The position numbers were made by a program, and so were the translations under genes. A stretch of 64,000 nucleotides of DNA from Sphingomonas jatrophae (GTDB taxonomy: Bacteria; Pseudomonadota; Alphaproteobacteria; Sphingomonadales; Sphingomonadaceae): the NCBI RefSeq assembly GCF_900113315.1, contig NZ_FOZG01000001.1, positions 1,240,001-1,304,000 of the forward strand, given 5' to 3'. The notes under the pieces were generated by a model. The model had not been told where the DNA came from. It made no database searches and saw only the letters and a list, made by a program, of their open reading frames with translations. Shown one piece after another: positions 8,524 to 12,763 of this stretch. Each line of letters starts with the position of its first letter. Position 1 is the first letter of the stretch.

Positions 8524-9084
8524 TCAGGCCTTCAGCCACTCCGCCAGTAGACGGAACGTGTCGCGCGCCGCTGCGACGATCGCATCGCCCTCCGCCTCAT
8601 GCGCGTCGAGCATGCGGCGCATGTCCTGCCACATCGCCCCGGTGCGAGCGCCATAAGGATGGAAGAAGCCCGTTGGTGCGTCGGCGCCGAACCGCTCGCG
8701 CACGGTGCGGGCGATCAGCTGGCCACCCATCGTCGCCCCCTCGCTGACGTAGAGCGCCCCCAGCGCCTGCTCGCGCGTCAGCGGTGCGGCGGCGGGTTGG
8801 CAGAGCGGCAAGATGTCTGGCCGCGTCTGCCCGAGCGCGGCAAGATCCGCGGCCAGGGCTGGCAACTTCGTTCGGCCTTCCAGCGCCTCAGCGCCGAGAG
8901 CCTCGATCAGCCGCGGCTCGCGTGCAGCATGATACCCCCACCAGCGCTCGATCAGCTGGCGATAGCCGGCCGGCGTGGCGATTCGGCTTTCCCAATCGAC
9001 CGCGCCTTCGGCGTCATCGTGCAGATCGCGGGTCGCTTCGCGCAGGCGCAGCGCGAGGCCGCTCAAACCCGCACCGTGAAGCAC
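8524..9084 (-). CDS. bphO: Biliverdin-producing heme oxygenase (phytochrome-linked, BphO type)
   Basis: A 186-aa all-helical heme oxygenase. The proximal heme ligand is the histidine in LREATRDLHDDAEG near residue 22. The distal-helix glycines lie in YVSEGATMGGQLI near residue 118. The start is GTG at 9084, inside the end of the bacteriophytochrome gene (22-base overlap), so translation is coupled. It opens heme to biliverdin IXalpha, the chromophore of the neighbouring phytochrome, and the gene pair is a standard bphP-bphO unit. Confidence 0.92.
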   Translation of the reverse strand: MLHGAGLSGLALRLREATRDLHDDAEGAVDWESRIATPAGYRQLIERWWGYHAAREPRLIEALGAEALEGRTKLPALAADLAALGQTRPDILPLCQPAAAPLTREQALGALYVSEGATMGGQLIARTVRERFGADAPTGFFHPYGARTGAMWQDMRRMLDAHEAEGDAIVAAARDTFRLLAEWLKA

Positions 9085-11645
9085 GCCCCGCTCGGCTCCG
9101 CCGAGCCGACCTCAAGACGCGCATCGATCTGCTGCAGCATAGCGCGAATGATGCGCATGCCGAGGCCGCCGCCGGTCTTCTGCTCGGCGCGGCTCTCCCA
9201 CCCGTCCGGCAGGCCGCGGCCATTGTCGCAGACGCGCATCATGAGCCCCGGACCTTCCGGCGAGACGGACACGTCGACCCGGCCCGCTTCGCCCGGCGAA
9301 TAAGCGTATTTGAGTGCGTTGGTGACGAGTTCGGTCGCGATGAGCGACAGCGCCACCGCCGTCTGGCTGGACACCATCACCGGGTGATCGGCGTGGACGG
9401 CGACGGCAAGCCCCTCCCCCGCCATCCCGGCAAGCAGATCGTTGCACAGCTGGCGCAGCGTCTCACCGACATCGACGCTCTCCATGTCTTCGGTCTGCTG
9501 GAGGCTGTCATGGACGCGCGCCACGCTCATGACGCGGGCATAGGTTTCCTCGAGCGCCGCACGGGCGGTCGGCTCCTCCACCTTGCGCGCCTGCATCAGC
9601 ATGACTGCGGCGACGATCTGGAGCGAGTTCTTGACCCGGTGATCGACCTCGCGCGCCAGCACGTCCTTCTGAGTGAGGGCCTGGGTCAGCTCGGCCTGCT
9701 GCTCGGTCAGAACCTGGATGCGGCGGTTCTGGCGCAGGATCACGCCCTCGATCCCGCTGGCGAAGGCGGCAGCCGCGCTCAATTGCCACGGCTCCCAGGG
9801 ATCGGACCGGCCGCGCCGTTCCTCCACCCACCGCTCGAACGAGCGACGCGGCAGCACCACCTGCGCGGCGGCATCGCCCAGCACCGGCTTGTTCGGATCA
9901 CCGCCCCACGCGATCGTACCCGCCACCTCGCGGCGGAACCAGATCAGCAGGTGACGCCGATCGGCATCGATCGCCGCCGCGAGTAGGCCGCTCGCCACCT
10001 CGCGCCACGCTTCGGCCTCGGGGAACAGCTCCGGCAAGGCATCCGTGGCGAAGCTGGCGTCGCTTGCCAGCGGACCGCGCCGCAACCAGTCGGCCAGCGC
10101 GAGCACGGCCGCCTCGGACGGCGTGCCGCCGACTGCGCGCACCTCTCCGTCGCGCACCACGGCCGCGCCGTCGGCGACGAACAGGCCGACGAGCGTCCGT
10201 TCCTCGGTCAGGATGGCGTCGACATAATCGTCCGAGCTGGCCATCTGCTCGAACAGCTTCTGCTGCGTGGCGAGATGCTGCTGCCGCGCGTCCCACGCGG
10301 CGCGGCTTTCCAGCTCATGGACGCGCAGCGCAAAGCCCTGCGTCACCAGCGTCGCCAGCGCGCGCGTTTCCGGCTCGACATAGCGGGGGCGCCGGTGATG
10401 ACCGATGACGAGGCCCCACAACTTTCCCTCGACCACGATCGAGACGGACATGGAGCCGTTGACGCCGAGATTCCGCTGATATTCGAGGTGCACCGGCGAC
10501 AGCGCGCGGGACTGCGCAAAACTCAGATCCACAGGCCCGTTGCCTGCCTCCGGATCAGCGAGGAGCGGTGCCGGGCTGGCATCGCGATCGACGACGAAAC
10601 GCGCGGGCGCGCGGGTGTAGAGCGCCCGTGCCTGCGCCGGAATGTCCGACGCGGGGAAACGCAGCCCCTCCAGCCGGTCGCCCCAATCCTCGGCAACCGA
10701 TTCGGTGATCGCCTCGCCGTTCCAATCCTCGTCGAAGCGGTAGACCAGAACGCGGTCGAAGCCGGTCATGGCGCGCACTTCCTCGACGCACGCGACGGCG
10801 GCTGACACGAGATCAGGCGCGTCGCGCATCCGGGCGATGGCATCCTGCGCCTGAAGCGGCGTGGCCGCACCGAAATCCTCGGGCCGGTCGGGCAGCAGCT
10901 CCAGCTCGATCACCAGCCGACCGCCATGGCAATGCGCGGTCAGCTCATAGCGTGCCTCGCCCAACGCCACGCGCCCCCGCAGCGGCCGCGTCGGATCCTG
11001 CTTGTCGTCGGCGGCGGCAAACATCCGCAGCCGCTCGACGACATCCGCCGGCATGAGGTCGCGGACGTGGCAGCCGAGCAGCGCCGTCTTGGCCCGTCCG
11101 AACGGCTCGCCCGCATTGTCACTGCAGACTTCGACGATCAGGCTCTGGGGATTGAGCGCCAGCATCGCGGCATGCGGCTGCACCGCACCGGGCACATGGA
11201 TCGGCTCACGCTCGCAGATTGATGGATCGATCGGCTCGGCCCGAAGCCGCCGATCGACCGCCTCGGCCGCCAGCATCATCGAGCGCTGACGCGTCGGCGG
11301 CAGCACGCCGAGCGGGCGGATGTCGATCCGGTAGCGGCCGGGCGCATCGCCGTCCCGCATCGCCACCTCTGCGCGCACTGGCTGCGGATCGCAGCCGAAG
11401 ACGAACTCGAAATCGGCAGCGAGCCGGCCGAGCCGGACACCGGACAGGAACCGCCCGTGGAAGGCCGGCAGGTGGGTGCCCGGCGCCACGTCGCGGAACA
11501 GATCGCGCCCGATCAGCTCATCCGACGACATGCCCGCTGGCTCGCAGATCATCGAGTCGTGGCTGAGGATGCGCCCGGTGGCGTCCACCTCGAGGCGGCC
11601 GAATGGCAGGCGCGCGCAGGCCGGCTCCGGACCCACGTCAGGCAT
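9063..11645 (-). CDS. bphP: Bacteriophytochrome histidine kinase with an N-terminal PYP-like domain
   Basis: An 860-aa protein from ATG 11645 (MPDVGPEP); the frame is open to 11885 but the extra part looks non-coding. Domains in order: residues 12-112 align with photoactive yellow protein (LPFGRLEVDATGRIL; LIGRDLFRDVAPG). PAS2 follows, with the biliverdin-binding cysteine 144 in SICEREPIHVPGAVQPH. GAF has PASDIP at 331-336 and the chromophore-lactam histidine 384 in SPVHLEYQRNLGV. The PHY tongue has PRRSF at 599-603. The kinase is HisKA_2/HWE type with H669 in EVDHRVKNSLQIV, then an ATPase domain. The layout is that of Ppr proteins. In the PYP-like domain the chromophore cysteine position is Gly56. 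The red/far-red sensor should be functional; the PYP part should be chromophore-free. No cognate response regulator is adjacent. Confidence 0.93.
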   Translation of the reverse strand: MPDVGPEPACARLPFGRLEVDATGRILSHDSMICEPAGMSSDELIGRDLFRDVAPGTHLPAFHGRFLSGVRLGRLAADFEFVFGCDPQPVRAEVAMRDGDAPGRYRIDIRPLGVLPPTRQRSMMLAAEAVDRRLRAEPIDPSICEREPIHVPGAVQPHAAMLALNPQSLIVEVCSDNAGEPFGRAKTALLGCHVRDLMPADVVERLRMFAAADDKQDPTRPLRGRVALGEARYELTAHCHGGRLVIELELLPDRPEDFGAATPLQAQDAIARMRDAPDLVSAAVACVEEVRAMTGFDRVLVYRFDEDWNGEAITESVAEDWGDRLEGLRFPASDIPAQARALYTRAPARFVVDRDASPAPLLADPEAGNGPVDLSFAQSRALSPVHLEYQRNLGVNGSMSVSIVVEGKLWGLVIGHHRRPRYVEPETRALATLVTQGFALRVHELESRAAWDARQQHLATQQKLFEQMASSDDYVDAILTEERTLVGLFVADGAAVVRDGEVRAVGGTPSEAAVLALADWLRRGPLASDASFATDALPELFPEAEAWREVASGLLAAAIDADRRHLLIWFRREVAGTIAWGGDPNKPVLGDAAAQVVLPRRSFERWVEERRGRSDPWEPWQLSAAAAFASGIEGVILRQNRRIQVLTEQQAELTQALTQKDVLAREVDHRVKNSLQIVAAVMLMQARKVEEPTARAALEETYARVMSVARVHDSLQQTEDMESVDVGETLRQLCNDLLAGMAGEGLAVAVHADHPVMVSSQTAVALSLIATELVTNALKYAYSPGEAGRVDVSVSPEGPGLMMRVCDNGRGLPDGWESRAEQKTGGGLGMRIIRAMLQQIDARLEVGSAEPSGACFTVRV

Positions 11646-11833: not shown

Positions 11834-12763
11834 ATGACGCTGCTCGATCCGCTTGCTCGCCTGCCGCTGCCCGTAATCGGCGCACCGATGTTCATCATTT
11901 CGCAGCCGGAGCTGGTGCTCGCCCAGTGCCGCAGCGGCATGGTCGGCTCGTTCCCGTCGCTCAATGCACGCCCATCGGGCATGCTCGAGCAGTGGCTGCA
12001 ACGGCTGAATGACGAGCTGACGCCGAATGATGCCCCGTTCGCGGTCAACCTGATCGTCCACCGCACCAATGCGCGGCTGGAGGAAGACCTCGCCCTCTGC
12101 GTCAAATATCGCGTGCCGATCATCATAACCTCGCTCGGCGCGCGGCCGGAGGTGAATGACGCGATCCATTCCTATGGCGGCATCGTGCTGCACGACGTGA
12201 TCGACAACGTCTTCGCCCACAAGGCGATCGACAAGGGCGCCGACGGCCTGATCGCGGTGGCGGCGGGCGCCGGCGGCCATGCCGGCACGCTCTCGCCCTT
12301 CGCACTGGTTCAGGAGATCCGCGCCTGGTTCGACGGCCCGCTGGCTTTGTCCGGCGCAATCGCCAGCGGGGCGTCGATCGCCGCGGCGCAGGCGATGGGC
12401 GCGGATCTGGCCTATATCGGCTCCGCCTTCATCGCGACGGAGGAGGCGAATGCAGACCCTGCCTACAAGGCGATGGTGACGCAGCATGCCGCGGCGGACA
12501 TCGTTTATTCCAACCTGTTCACCGGTATCTACGGCAATTACCTGAAGCCCAGCATCGCCGCCGCCGGGCTCGACCCGGACAAGCTGGCCGGTGCCGATCC
12601 GACCGCAATGGATTTCGGCGACGGCCTGGCCAAGGCGTGGCGGGATATCTGGGGCTGCGGCCAGGGGATCGGCGCGGTCAGCGAGGTCGTGCCCGCGGCG
12701 ACGCTGGTCGACCGGCTGAAGCGCGAATATCGCGCCACGCTGGATCGGCTGCGCACGCTGTAA
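11834..12763 (+). CDS. Nitronate monooxygenase (2-nitropropane dioxygenase family)
   Basis: A 309-aa FMN-dependent TIM-barrel enzyme that oxidises alkyl nitronates such as propionate 3-nitronate. Family marks are PVIGAPMFIISQPELV near residue 12, FAVNLIVHRTN near residue 62, the phosphate- and flavin-binding GAGGHAGTLSP near residue 150, and LSGAIASGASIAAAQAMGAD near residue 175. A strong GGAGGA ribosome site lies six bases before ATG. The gene diverges from the bacteriophytochrome gene and is followed by the molybdoenzyme gene 80 bases on. Confidence 0.93.
   Translation: MTLLDPLARLPLPVIGAPMFIISQPELVLAQCRSGMVGSFPSLNARPSGMLEQWLQRLNDELTPNDAPFAVNLIVHRTNARLEEDLALCVKYRVPIIITSLGARPEVNDAIHSYGGIVLHDVIDNVFAHKAIDKGADGLIAVAAGAGGHAGTLSPFALVQEIRAWFDGPLALSGAIASGASIAAAQAMGADLAYIGSAFIATEEANADPAYKAMVTQHAAADIVYSNLFTGIYGNYLKPSIAAAGLDPDKLAGADPTAMDFGDGLAKAWRDIWGCGQGIGAVSEVVPAATLVDRLKREYRATLDRLRTL

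Follow-up and report, generated by a model that had tools for sequence, protein, structure and literature searches.

We analysed a 64,000-nucleotide stretch of the Sphingomonas jatrophae genome (contig NZ_FOZG01000001.1, positions 1,240,001 to 1,304,000), here called the window, and in it a gene that lies on the minus strand at 9063-11645, exactly where a sequence-only reading of this DNA had placed it (ATG at 11645, stop at 9063). It encodes an 860-residue protein of the Ppr type, in which a photoactive yellow protein (PYP) domain stands ahead of a bacteriophytochrome histidine kinase. This domain belongs to the PYP family and has all five named photocycle residues replaced, among them the chromophore cysteine Cys69, and the phytochrome signature of the same protein is intact. 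Cys69 was lost separately in the lineage of the window protein, in that of two metagenome-assembled genomes (MAGs; the Caulobacteraceae-MAG pair) and in Methylobacterium, so that PYP domains of Ppr kinases have been blinded at least three times, a result that is new here. We give an even chance to the reading that the domain is a blue-blind PYP scaffold, whose photochemistry was lost in its own lineage and which a red-light kinase has kept as its structural or allosteric cap.

The PYP domain and its missing photocycle residues

The protein has the domain order of Ppr (PYP, PAS, GAF, PHY, histidine kinase), with Pfam matches in the order PAS_2, GAF, PHY, HisKA_2 and HATPase_c and the PYP-model match ahead of these. 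At the thresholds used, it is the sole PHY-domain match and the sole PYP-model match in the genome. The PYP-fold domain spans residues 12-112 (11310..11612, minus strand). On residues 11-109, the TIGR02373 model (photoactive yellow protein) scored 73.3 bits (E 1.8e-20), compared to 19.4 bits for Pfam PAS and 16.4 bits for S-box; the score falls below the curated cut-off of 143 bits, and the domain is thus a PYP homologue and not an equivalog. By sequence, the top PDB match was 1mzu, the R. centenum Ppr PYP domain (E 7.5e-19), to which residues 12-110 align without a gap, in agreement with the gapless core alignment to PYP that had been proposed from the sequence. An AlphaFold2 model of residues 1-125, built from 54 sequences, reached a mean confidence (predicted local distance difference test, pLDDT) of 86, and its 41 top PDB matches in Foldseek were all PYP or PYP derivatives (E from 5e-11), with the first other PAS domain following at E 7e-6. 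Profile scores and structural ranking thus rule out an ordinary PAS domain; a chance match is excluded, and membership in the PYP family is confirmed.

Since window protein and PYP align at a constant, ungapped offset of 13, residue equivalences follow directly. Tyr42 corresponds to His29, Glu46 to Ile33, Thr50 to Ala37, Arg52 to Met39 and Cys69 to Gly56 (codon 11478..11480, minus strand); the alignment to 1mzu and PYP and the family alignment agree, and all five replacements listed by the sequence-only reading are correct. As a small correction to that reading, most Cys-positive Ppr relatives have Ser and not Thr at position 50. Positions Asn43, Phe62, Tyr/Phe98 and Trp119 have changed as well, and Cys34 and Cys85 of the window protein fall at PYP positions 47 and 98. 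A functional PYP photoreceptor is defined by Cys69 according to PMC9664959; at this site and at those of Tyr42 and Glu46, the window domain has Gly56, His29 and Ile33. Judged from these residues, binding of p-coumaric acid has probably been lost.

The phytochrome half presents the opposite picture in that its signature is intact. Cys144, the presumed biliverdin attachment site (11214..11216, minus strand), the DIP aspartate D334, H416 of the GAF domain and R600 and S602 of the PRxSF tongue are common to 79/79 aligned phytochrome rows, and H386 of the GAF domain to 78/79 (rows that include the window protein and some near-duplicates). Cys144, PASDIP and PRRSF had been named correctly before; the residue given as His384 is P384, the conserved histidine being H386. 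With this set of residues, the window protein would be expected to be active in red light.

Separate losses of Cys69 in three lineages

Known Ppr proteins had been supposed to keep the cysteine, which does not hold. Xing, Gumerov and Zhulin (2022; PMC9664959) report Cys69 substitutions in methylobacterial Ppr homologues, of which some also have Y42C and S50C, and for Ppr with this pair beside a DLD gene they suggest a redox-sensing role. Cys-less Ppr was thus already known from methylobacteria, and any claim of uniqueness for the window protein is corrected accordingly. Dohmen et al. (2025; PMC12826048) analysed 984 Cys69-containing homologues, and Cys-less Ppr is therefore left aside there. 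Neither of these two PYP surveys has the string "Sphingom" in its main text, supplements being outside this scope, and our search found no paper that joins photoactive yellow protein, bacteriophytochrome and Sphingomonas.

Among 111 Methylobacterium genomes, the Ppr N-terminus found some match in 100, and a Ppr-type PYP domain is present in 89. This gave 93 domains, counted after removal of two rows (L158 and L159, initially bringing the count to 95) that are not Ppr and show no phytochrome motif in the available stretch; the identical L119 and L120 are both counted. Only 18 of the 93 keep Cys69, and 75 have lost it (42 Gly, 29 Ser, 4 Ala). The closest relatives of the window protein, two sphingomonad Ppr proteins (L193 and L194, genomes G190 and G364; 54-55% identity), keep Tyr42, Glu46, Ser50, Arg52 and Cys69. 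Two MAGs, one labelled Caulobacteraceae and the other Proteobacteria (L039, L040; 50% identity to the window protein), encode Cys-less Ppr with Trp42, Gln46, Val52 and Glu69. At positions 42/46/50/52/69, the replacements therefore read H/I/A/M/G in the window protein, W/Q/S/V/E in the Caulobacteraceae-MAG pair and mostly F or C/A/S or C/L/G or S in Methylobacterium.

We then placed these proteins on trees built from the phytochrome and kinase part only, the PYP domain being excluded. A quick tree held 71 rows (L085, L042 and L145 left out by choice, L152 for want of the anchor motif, near-duplicates removed); later trees were thinned to 45 and 35 rows, both without L195 and without the ordinary phytochrome L080 (34% identity to the window protein). 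Long-branch warnings concerned the window protein with L193/L194 (71- and 45-row trees), L195 with L039 (71-row tree) and L039/L040 with the Indioceanicola profundi row L237 (35-row tree). The window protein grouped with Ppr, as sister to the Cys69-positive L193/L194, with support of 100/99 in the 45-row and 100/100 in the 35-row tree. The 35-row tree, which includes the Cys-positive Ppr of Indioceanicola profundi, forced three changes at Cys69 (3-3 in the 5-95% bootstrap range), as did the 71-row tree with L195. Moreover, approximately unbiased (AU) tests rejected a single clade of all Cys-less rows (p 4.5e-83), a grouping of the window protein with the Caulobacteraceae pair (p 0.0016) and one with Cys-less Methylobacterium (p 6.3e-8). 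The window protein thus has no shared origin of Cys69 loss with the methylobacterial redox-type Ppr, and the three losses are separate. A history of three losses is far more likely than one of repeated regain, because Tyr42, Glu46, Ser50, Arg52 and Cys69 are common to the Cys-positive Ppr rows of these lineages.

Several other PYP-like proteins were observed among the relatives. Stand-alone small PYPs of the window's family (L013, L014, L015, L016) keep Tyr42, Glu46 and Cys69, have AQC in place of APC at the chromophore (Gln68) as well as Leu52, and share the stretch CMNNFMVAQRFEDEP. PYP domains lie C-terminally in the long open frames of L026, L027 and L028, the first two with Gln46, Ile68 and Cys69 kept. 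Two Ppr paralogues occur in some Methylobacterium genomes (G1066, G1126, G1133, G1136; L149, L150, L153-L156), where a separate, diverged paralogue group has lost nearly all pocket residues (Ala42, Ala46, Leu50, Gly69, position 52 variable). Eleven short PYP-like rows (120-196 aa) were also among the Methylobacterium matches, five of them with internal stops; G1127:C42, G1136:C43, G1139:C241, G1088:C122 and G1115:C61 are short PYP-like matches of 25-31% identity with 1-2 internal TGA, possibly decayed stand-alone copies. The Indioceanicola profundi Ppr (L237), on a 454-kb plasmid (NZ_CP030128.1), has intact PYP residues and lies just behind genes for a response regulator and a PAS sensor.

Pocket losses and retention of the domain

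In the window protein, the PYP domain alone has accelerated. Its identity to the Ppr row L034 is 41% in this domain, compared to 61% for L193, and the other domains show no such deficit (window/L193: PAS 45/40, GAF 63/63, PHY 52/52, HK [histidine kinase] 60/54). Against the Methylobacterium row L031, the PYP domain is 48% identical in the window protein and 60% in L193.

We scored 42 positions conserved in Cys-positive Ppr representatives, of which 11 were the testable ones of 13 pocket or photocycle positions and 31 were others. Four of the 13 (50, 52, 98 and 100) were added here as presumed pocket or photocycle positions; a separate list of 15 presumed positions gave the same 11 testable positions and the same lost and kept positions for the window protein. 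The remaining nine are those of PMC12826048. The window protein has lost 8/11 pocket positions compared to 8/31 others (p 0.01), the Caulobacteraceae pair 6/11 compared to 4/31 (p 0.01) and Cys-less Methylobacterium 8/11 compared to 6/31 (p 0.0025). In six Cys-positive controls, the losses amounted to 0 or 1/11 pocket positions and 0-6 of 31-36 others, except for the distant L195 (12/37). Positions 42, 46, 52, 69 and 98 were lost in all three lineages (permutation p 0.002, a value that ignores differences in mutability between sites). Loss is thus centred on the pocket.

The Cys-less domains of the relatives are under purifying selection. The pooled ratio of nonsynonymous to synonymous differences (pN/pS) in the PYP domain was 0.26 over 15 close Cys-less pairs (14 from Methylobacterium and one Caulobacteraceae-MAG pair; 190 nonsynonymous and 273 synonymous differences), whereas five Cys-positive pairs gave 0.20 and the PAS domain, over those 15 Cys-less pairs, gave 0.24; not all pairs are independent, L156 being in two, and one lacks the HK domain. 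When the 111 Methylobacterium genomes were queried with the phytochrome half, the matches listed comprised 92 places in 87 genomes, and 91/92 were preceded by a PYP match. Those 91 lie in open frames of at least 867 aa, the exception being a partial row of 498 aa. Because this search was limited to the ten best candidates in each genome and overlooked two Ppr rows (G1110, G1059), a PYP-less orthologue could have escaped it. Eleven rows that looked, in the linker region, like Ppr orthologues having dropped PYP belong to other phytochromes with 31-34% identity to the window protein and therefore give no evidence of domain loss. The low pooled pN/pS and the PYP match ahead of nearly all phytochrome halves indicate that the blind domain is kept in the relatives. 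Purifying selection there, together with partial retention of the scaffold, argues that something in the Cys-less domain is kept; the conversion to a ligand, redox or dimerisation domain that the sequence-only reading proposed is a candidate for it.

What is kept could be explained in other ways. The emptied pocket might bind another small molecule, or the domain might sense redox through Cys34 and Cys85, passing a signal other than light into a red-light kinase. The partly retained scaffold, the cysteines at PYP positions 47 and 98 and the redox sensing proposed in PMC9664959 for methylobacterial Ppr with Y42C and S50C beside a DLD gene are consistent with such a repurposed sensor. However, Cys42 and Cys50 occur together in only 16/75 Cys-less methylobacterial domains, which leaves most cases unexplained by a disulfide between them. 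The window protein has His29 and Ala37 instead of this pair, and a scan of five neighbouring proteins turned up no DLD. The replacements at 42/46/50/52/69 also differ by lineage, unlike what a single shared new ligand would lead one to expect, and we consider a repurposed sensor unlikely, though by no means far-fetched. Alternatively, the domain might be a relic, a dead passenger that is hard to drop since it lies in frame ahead of the phytochrome and that is slowly decaying. The acceleration of the PYP domain alone and the eight non-pocket positions lost by the window protein, Trp119 among them, would fit such decay; the pooled pN/pS of the relatives, the PYP domain still ahead of 91 of the 92 listed phytochrome halves and the predicted PYP fold of the window domain (pLDDT 86) speak against it, and we regard decay as rather unlikely, though conceivable for this single sequence.

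Two further explanations carry little probability. Engineered PYP derivatives such as FAST, which were among the PDB matches, carry C69G and bind fluorogens non-covalently, and the window domain might likewise hold a hydroxycinnamate or related ligand with weak photoactivity left. Such ligands are held by Tyr42, Glu46 and Arg52, all replaced here, which makes this very improbable. It is scarcely to be expected, either, that translation starts within the linker and leaves the PYP part unmade, although Met123/Met124 lie about 20 residues ahead of Cys144, as in ordinary phytochromes. GC content at the three codon positions is 0.77/0.52/0.88 for residues 1-120 and 0.76/0.48/0.85 for the rest of the protein, compared to 0.65/0.62/0.62 in the open frame that extends upstream of the ATG. 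By this signature, the PYP segment is very probably genuine coding sequence. A purine-rich stretch (ggagacgagaggagcgag) precedes the ATG at 11645, and translation plausibly starts at M1.

A number of observations weigh against a retained, blinded cap. The window protein is the single sequence of its Cys-less state: a search of 396 genomes of the order, 397 of the family and 297 relatives (overlapping samples, not the whole family) brought up no Cys-less sibling, and selection on its PYP domain after the loss of Cys69 is therefore not measurable. Its 8/31 non-pocket losses exceed those of most Cys-positive controls and, together with the mostly conserved W119 now being Arg, fit relaxed constraint. 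When only the published nine-residue pocket was scored, the trend was the same and not significant (p 0.22 for the window protein, 0.08 for the Caulobacteraceae pair, 0.09 for Methylobacterium). Methylobacterial pairs included PYP dN/dS outliers of 1.39 (L153/L154) and 0.54, and the unrooted 45-row tree, which lacks the Indioceanicola row, forced only two changes (2-3 over bootstrap trees). The full-length AlphaFold2 model does not place the PYP domain confidently (predicted template modelling score 0.61; pLDDT below 50 over residues 116-152). Finally, we gave little weight to chromophore supply as a test of blindness. Aromatic ammonia lyase (PF00221) was absent from the window genome (G000) and from G1003 and G1004, two MAGs of unstated completeness, and present in five other searched genomes, all with Cys-positive PYP. 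The motif ..LSHxxG, which we take to mark histidine-type ammonia lyases, occurs in the lyases of the three sphingomonad relatives and in one lyase of each of the two Methylobacterium genomes; only the second G1001 lyase differs. Since the relatives' lyases look like histidine ammonia lyases, their absence from the window genome says little on chromophore supply.

Proposed role and closest known systems

If the domain is such a cap, its p-coumarate photochemistry would have been lost in the window lineage after the split from the relatives that keep the residues, and the protein would read red/far-red light only, through biliverdin on Cys144. Biliverdin would be supplied through the heme oxygenase gene bphO (8524..9084, minus strand; PF01126, 40.3 bits), whose start overlaps the end of ppr by 22 bases. 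Ppr always has a heme oxygenase neighbour according to PMC9664959. A bphO relative clearly follows ppr in L193, L194, L034 and L036 and, as a weak match, in L039/L040; none was found in the available stretches around L031 and L237, and none is annotated near the latter Ppr on the Indioceanicola profundi plasmid. The folded N-terminal PYP cap would be joined by a short, low-confidence helix predicted at residues 120-132 (11250..11288, minus strand) to the segment with the biliverdin cysteine. From there, it would most likely tune the phytochrome dimer or the kinase output, and even with no light response of its own it could act on the dimer and on the surroundings of the chromophore.

The remaining domains all lie on the minus strand. 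The phytochrome part comprises PAS_2 (residues 144-249, 10899..11216; PF08446, 62.9 bits), GAF with PASDIP, H386 and H416 (residues 284-436, 10338..10796; PF01590, 46.7 bits) and PHY with the tongue motif PRRSF (residues 459-639, 9729..10271; PF00360, 161.5 bits). It is followed by the HisKA_2 dimerisation and phosphoacceptor domain (residues 666-738, 9432..9650; PF07568, 77.8 bits), whose His669 is present in 55/55 rows reaching that site, and by HATPase_c (residues 764-859, 9069..9356; PF02518, 49.4 bits). An HWE kinase was rejected, since HWE_HK scored only 32.8 bits. The kinase part matched the PhyK model at 115 bits, under its cut-off of 750, and the genome has a NepR gene. HWE/HisKA2 kinases are tied to the general stress response in the literature, and since the HisKA_2 type is one that provides input to this alphaproteobacterial response, a stress-response output is plausible. 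On the other side of ppr, a divergent neighbour (11834-12763, plus strand) encodes a FabK-like protein (TIGR03151, 82 bits, far under the cut-off of 453).

The contribution of PYP to PYP-phytochrome hybrids is poorly understood. A wider reading, which we offer tentatively and hold to be possible but short of probable, is that PYP domains ahead of bacteriophytochrome kinases have been repeatedly and selectively blinded in three lineages, losing five shared pocket positions each time, and that selection has then preserved them, so that a light-independent job, in phytochrome dimerisation or kinase tone, outlives the blue-light function. Natural proteins without the pocket, beside intact relatives that are 55% identical, offer a ready-made comparison, in which the common part would be the light-independent job. 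Recurrent loss also calls for caution in annotating such proteins as blue/red dual sensors.

Among known systems, Ppr of R. centenum (Rhodocista centenaria) has the same domain order, and its PYP domain aligns to that of the window protein without gaps over residues 12-110, but it keeps Tyr42, Glu46 and Cys69, of which the window protein has none. This protein has been connected with polyketide synthesis and, by way of CheW, with chemotaxis (PMC2993699). Thermochromatium tepidum Ppd likewise has PYP ahead of a phytochrome but a GGDEF/EAL c-di-GMP output in place of a histidine kinase, and its PYP is described as an E46Q variant light sensor (PMC12826048, PMC9664959). The sphingomonad Ppr proteins L193 and L194 are, like the window protein, encoded ahead of a bphO gene but keep Tyr42, Glu46, Ser50, Arg52 and Cys69, whereas Ppr of the two MAGs is Cys69-less like the window protein, through different substitutions and a separate loss. 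The methylobacterial Cys69-less Ppr proteins (PMC9664959) resemble the window protein in architecture, in full-length identity (about 49-54%), in the loss of Cys69 and Glu46 and in their intact phytochrome residues; in contrast, the window protein lost its cysteine separately, has no Tyr42Cys/Ser50Cys pair and has no DLD gene among its scanned neighbours.

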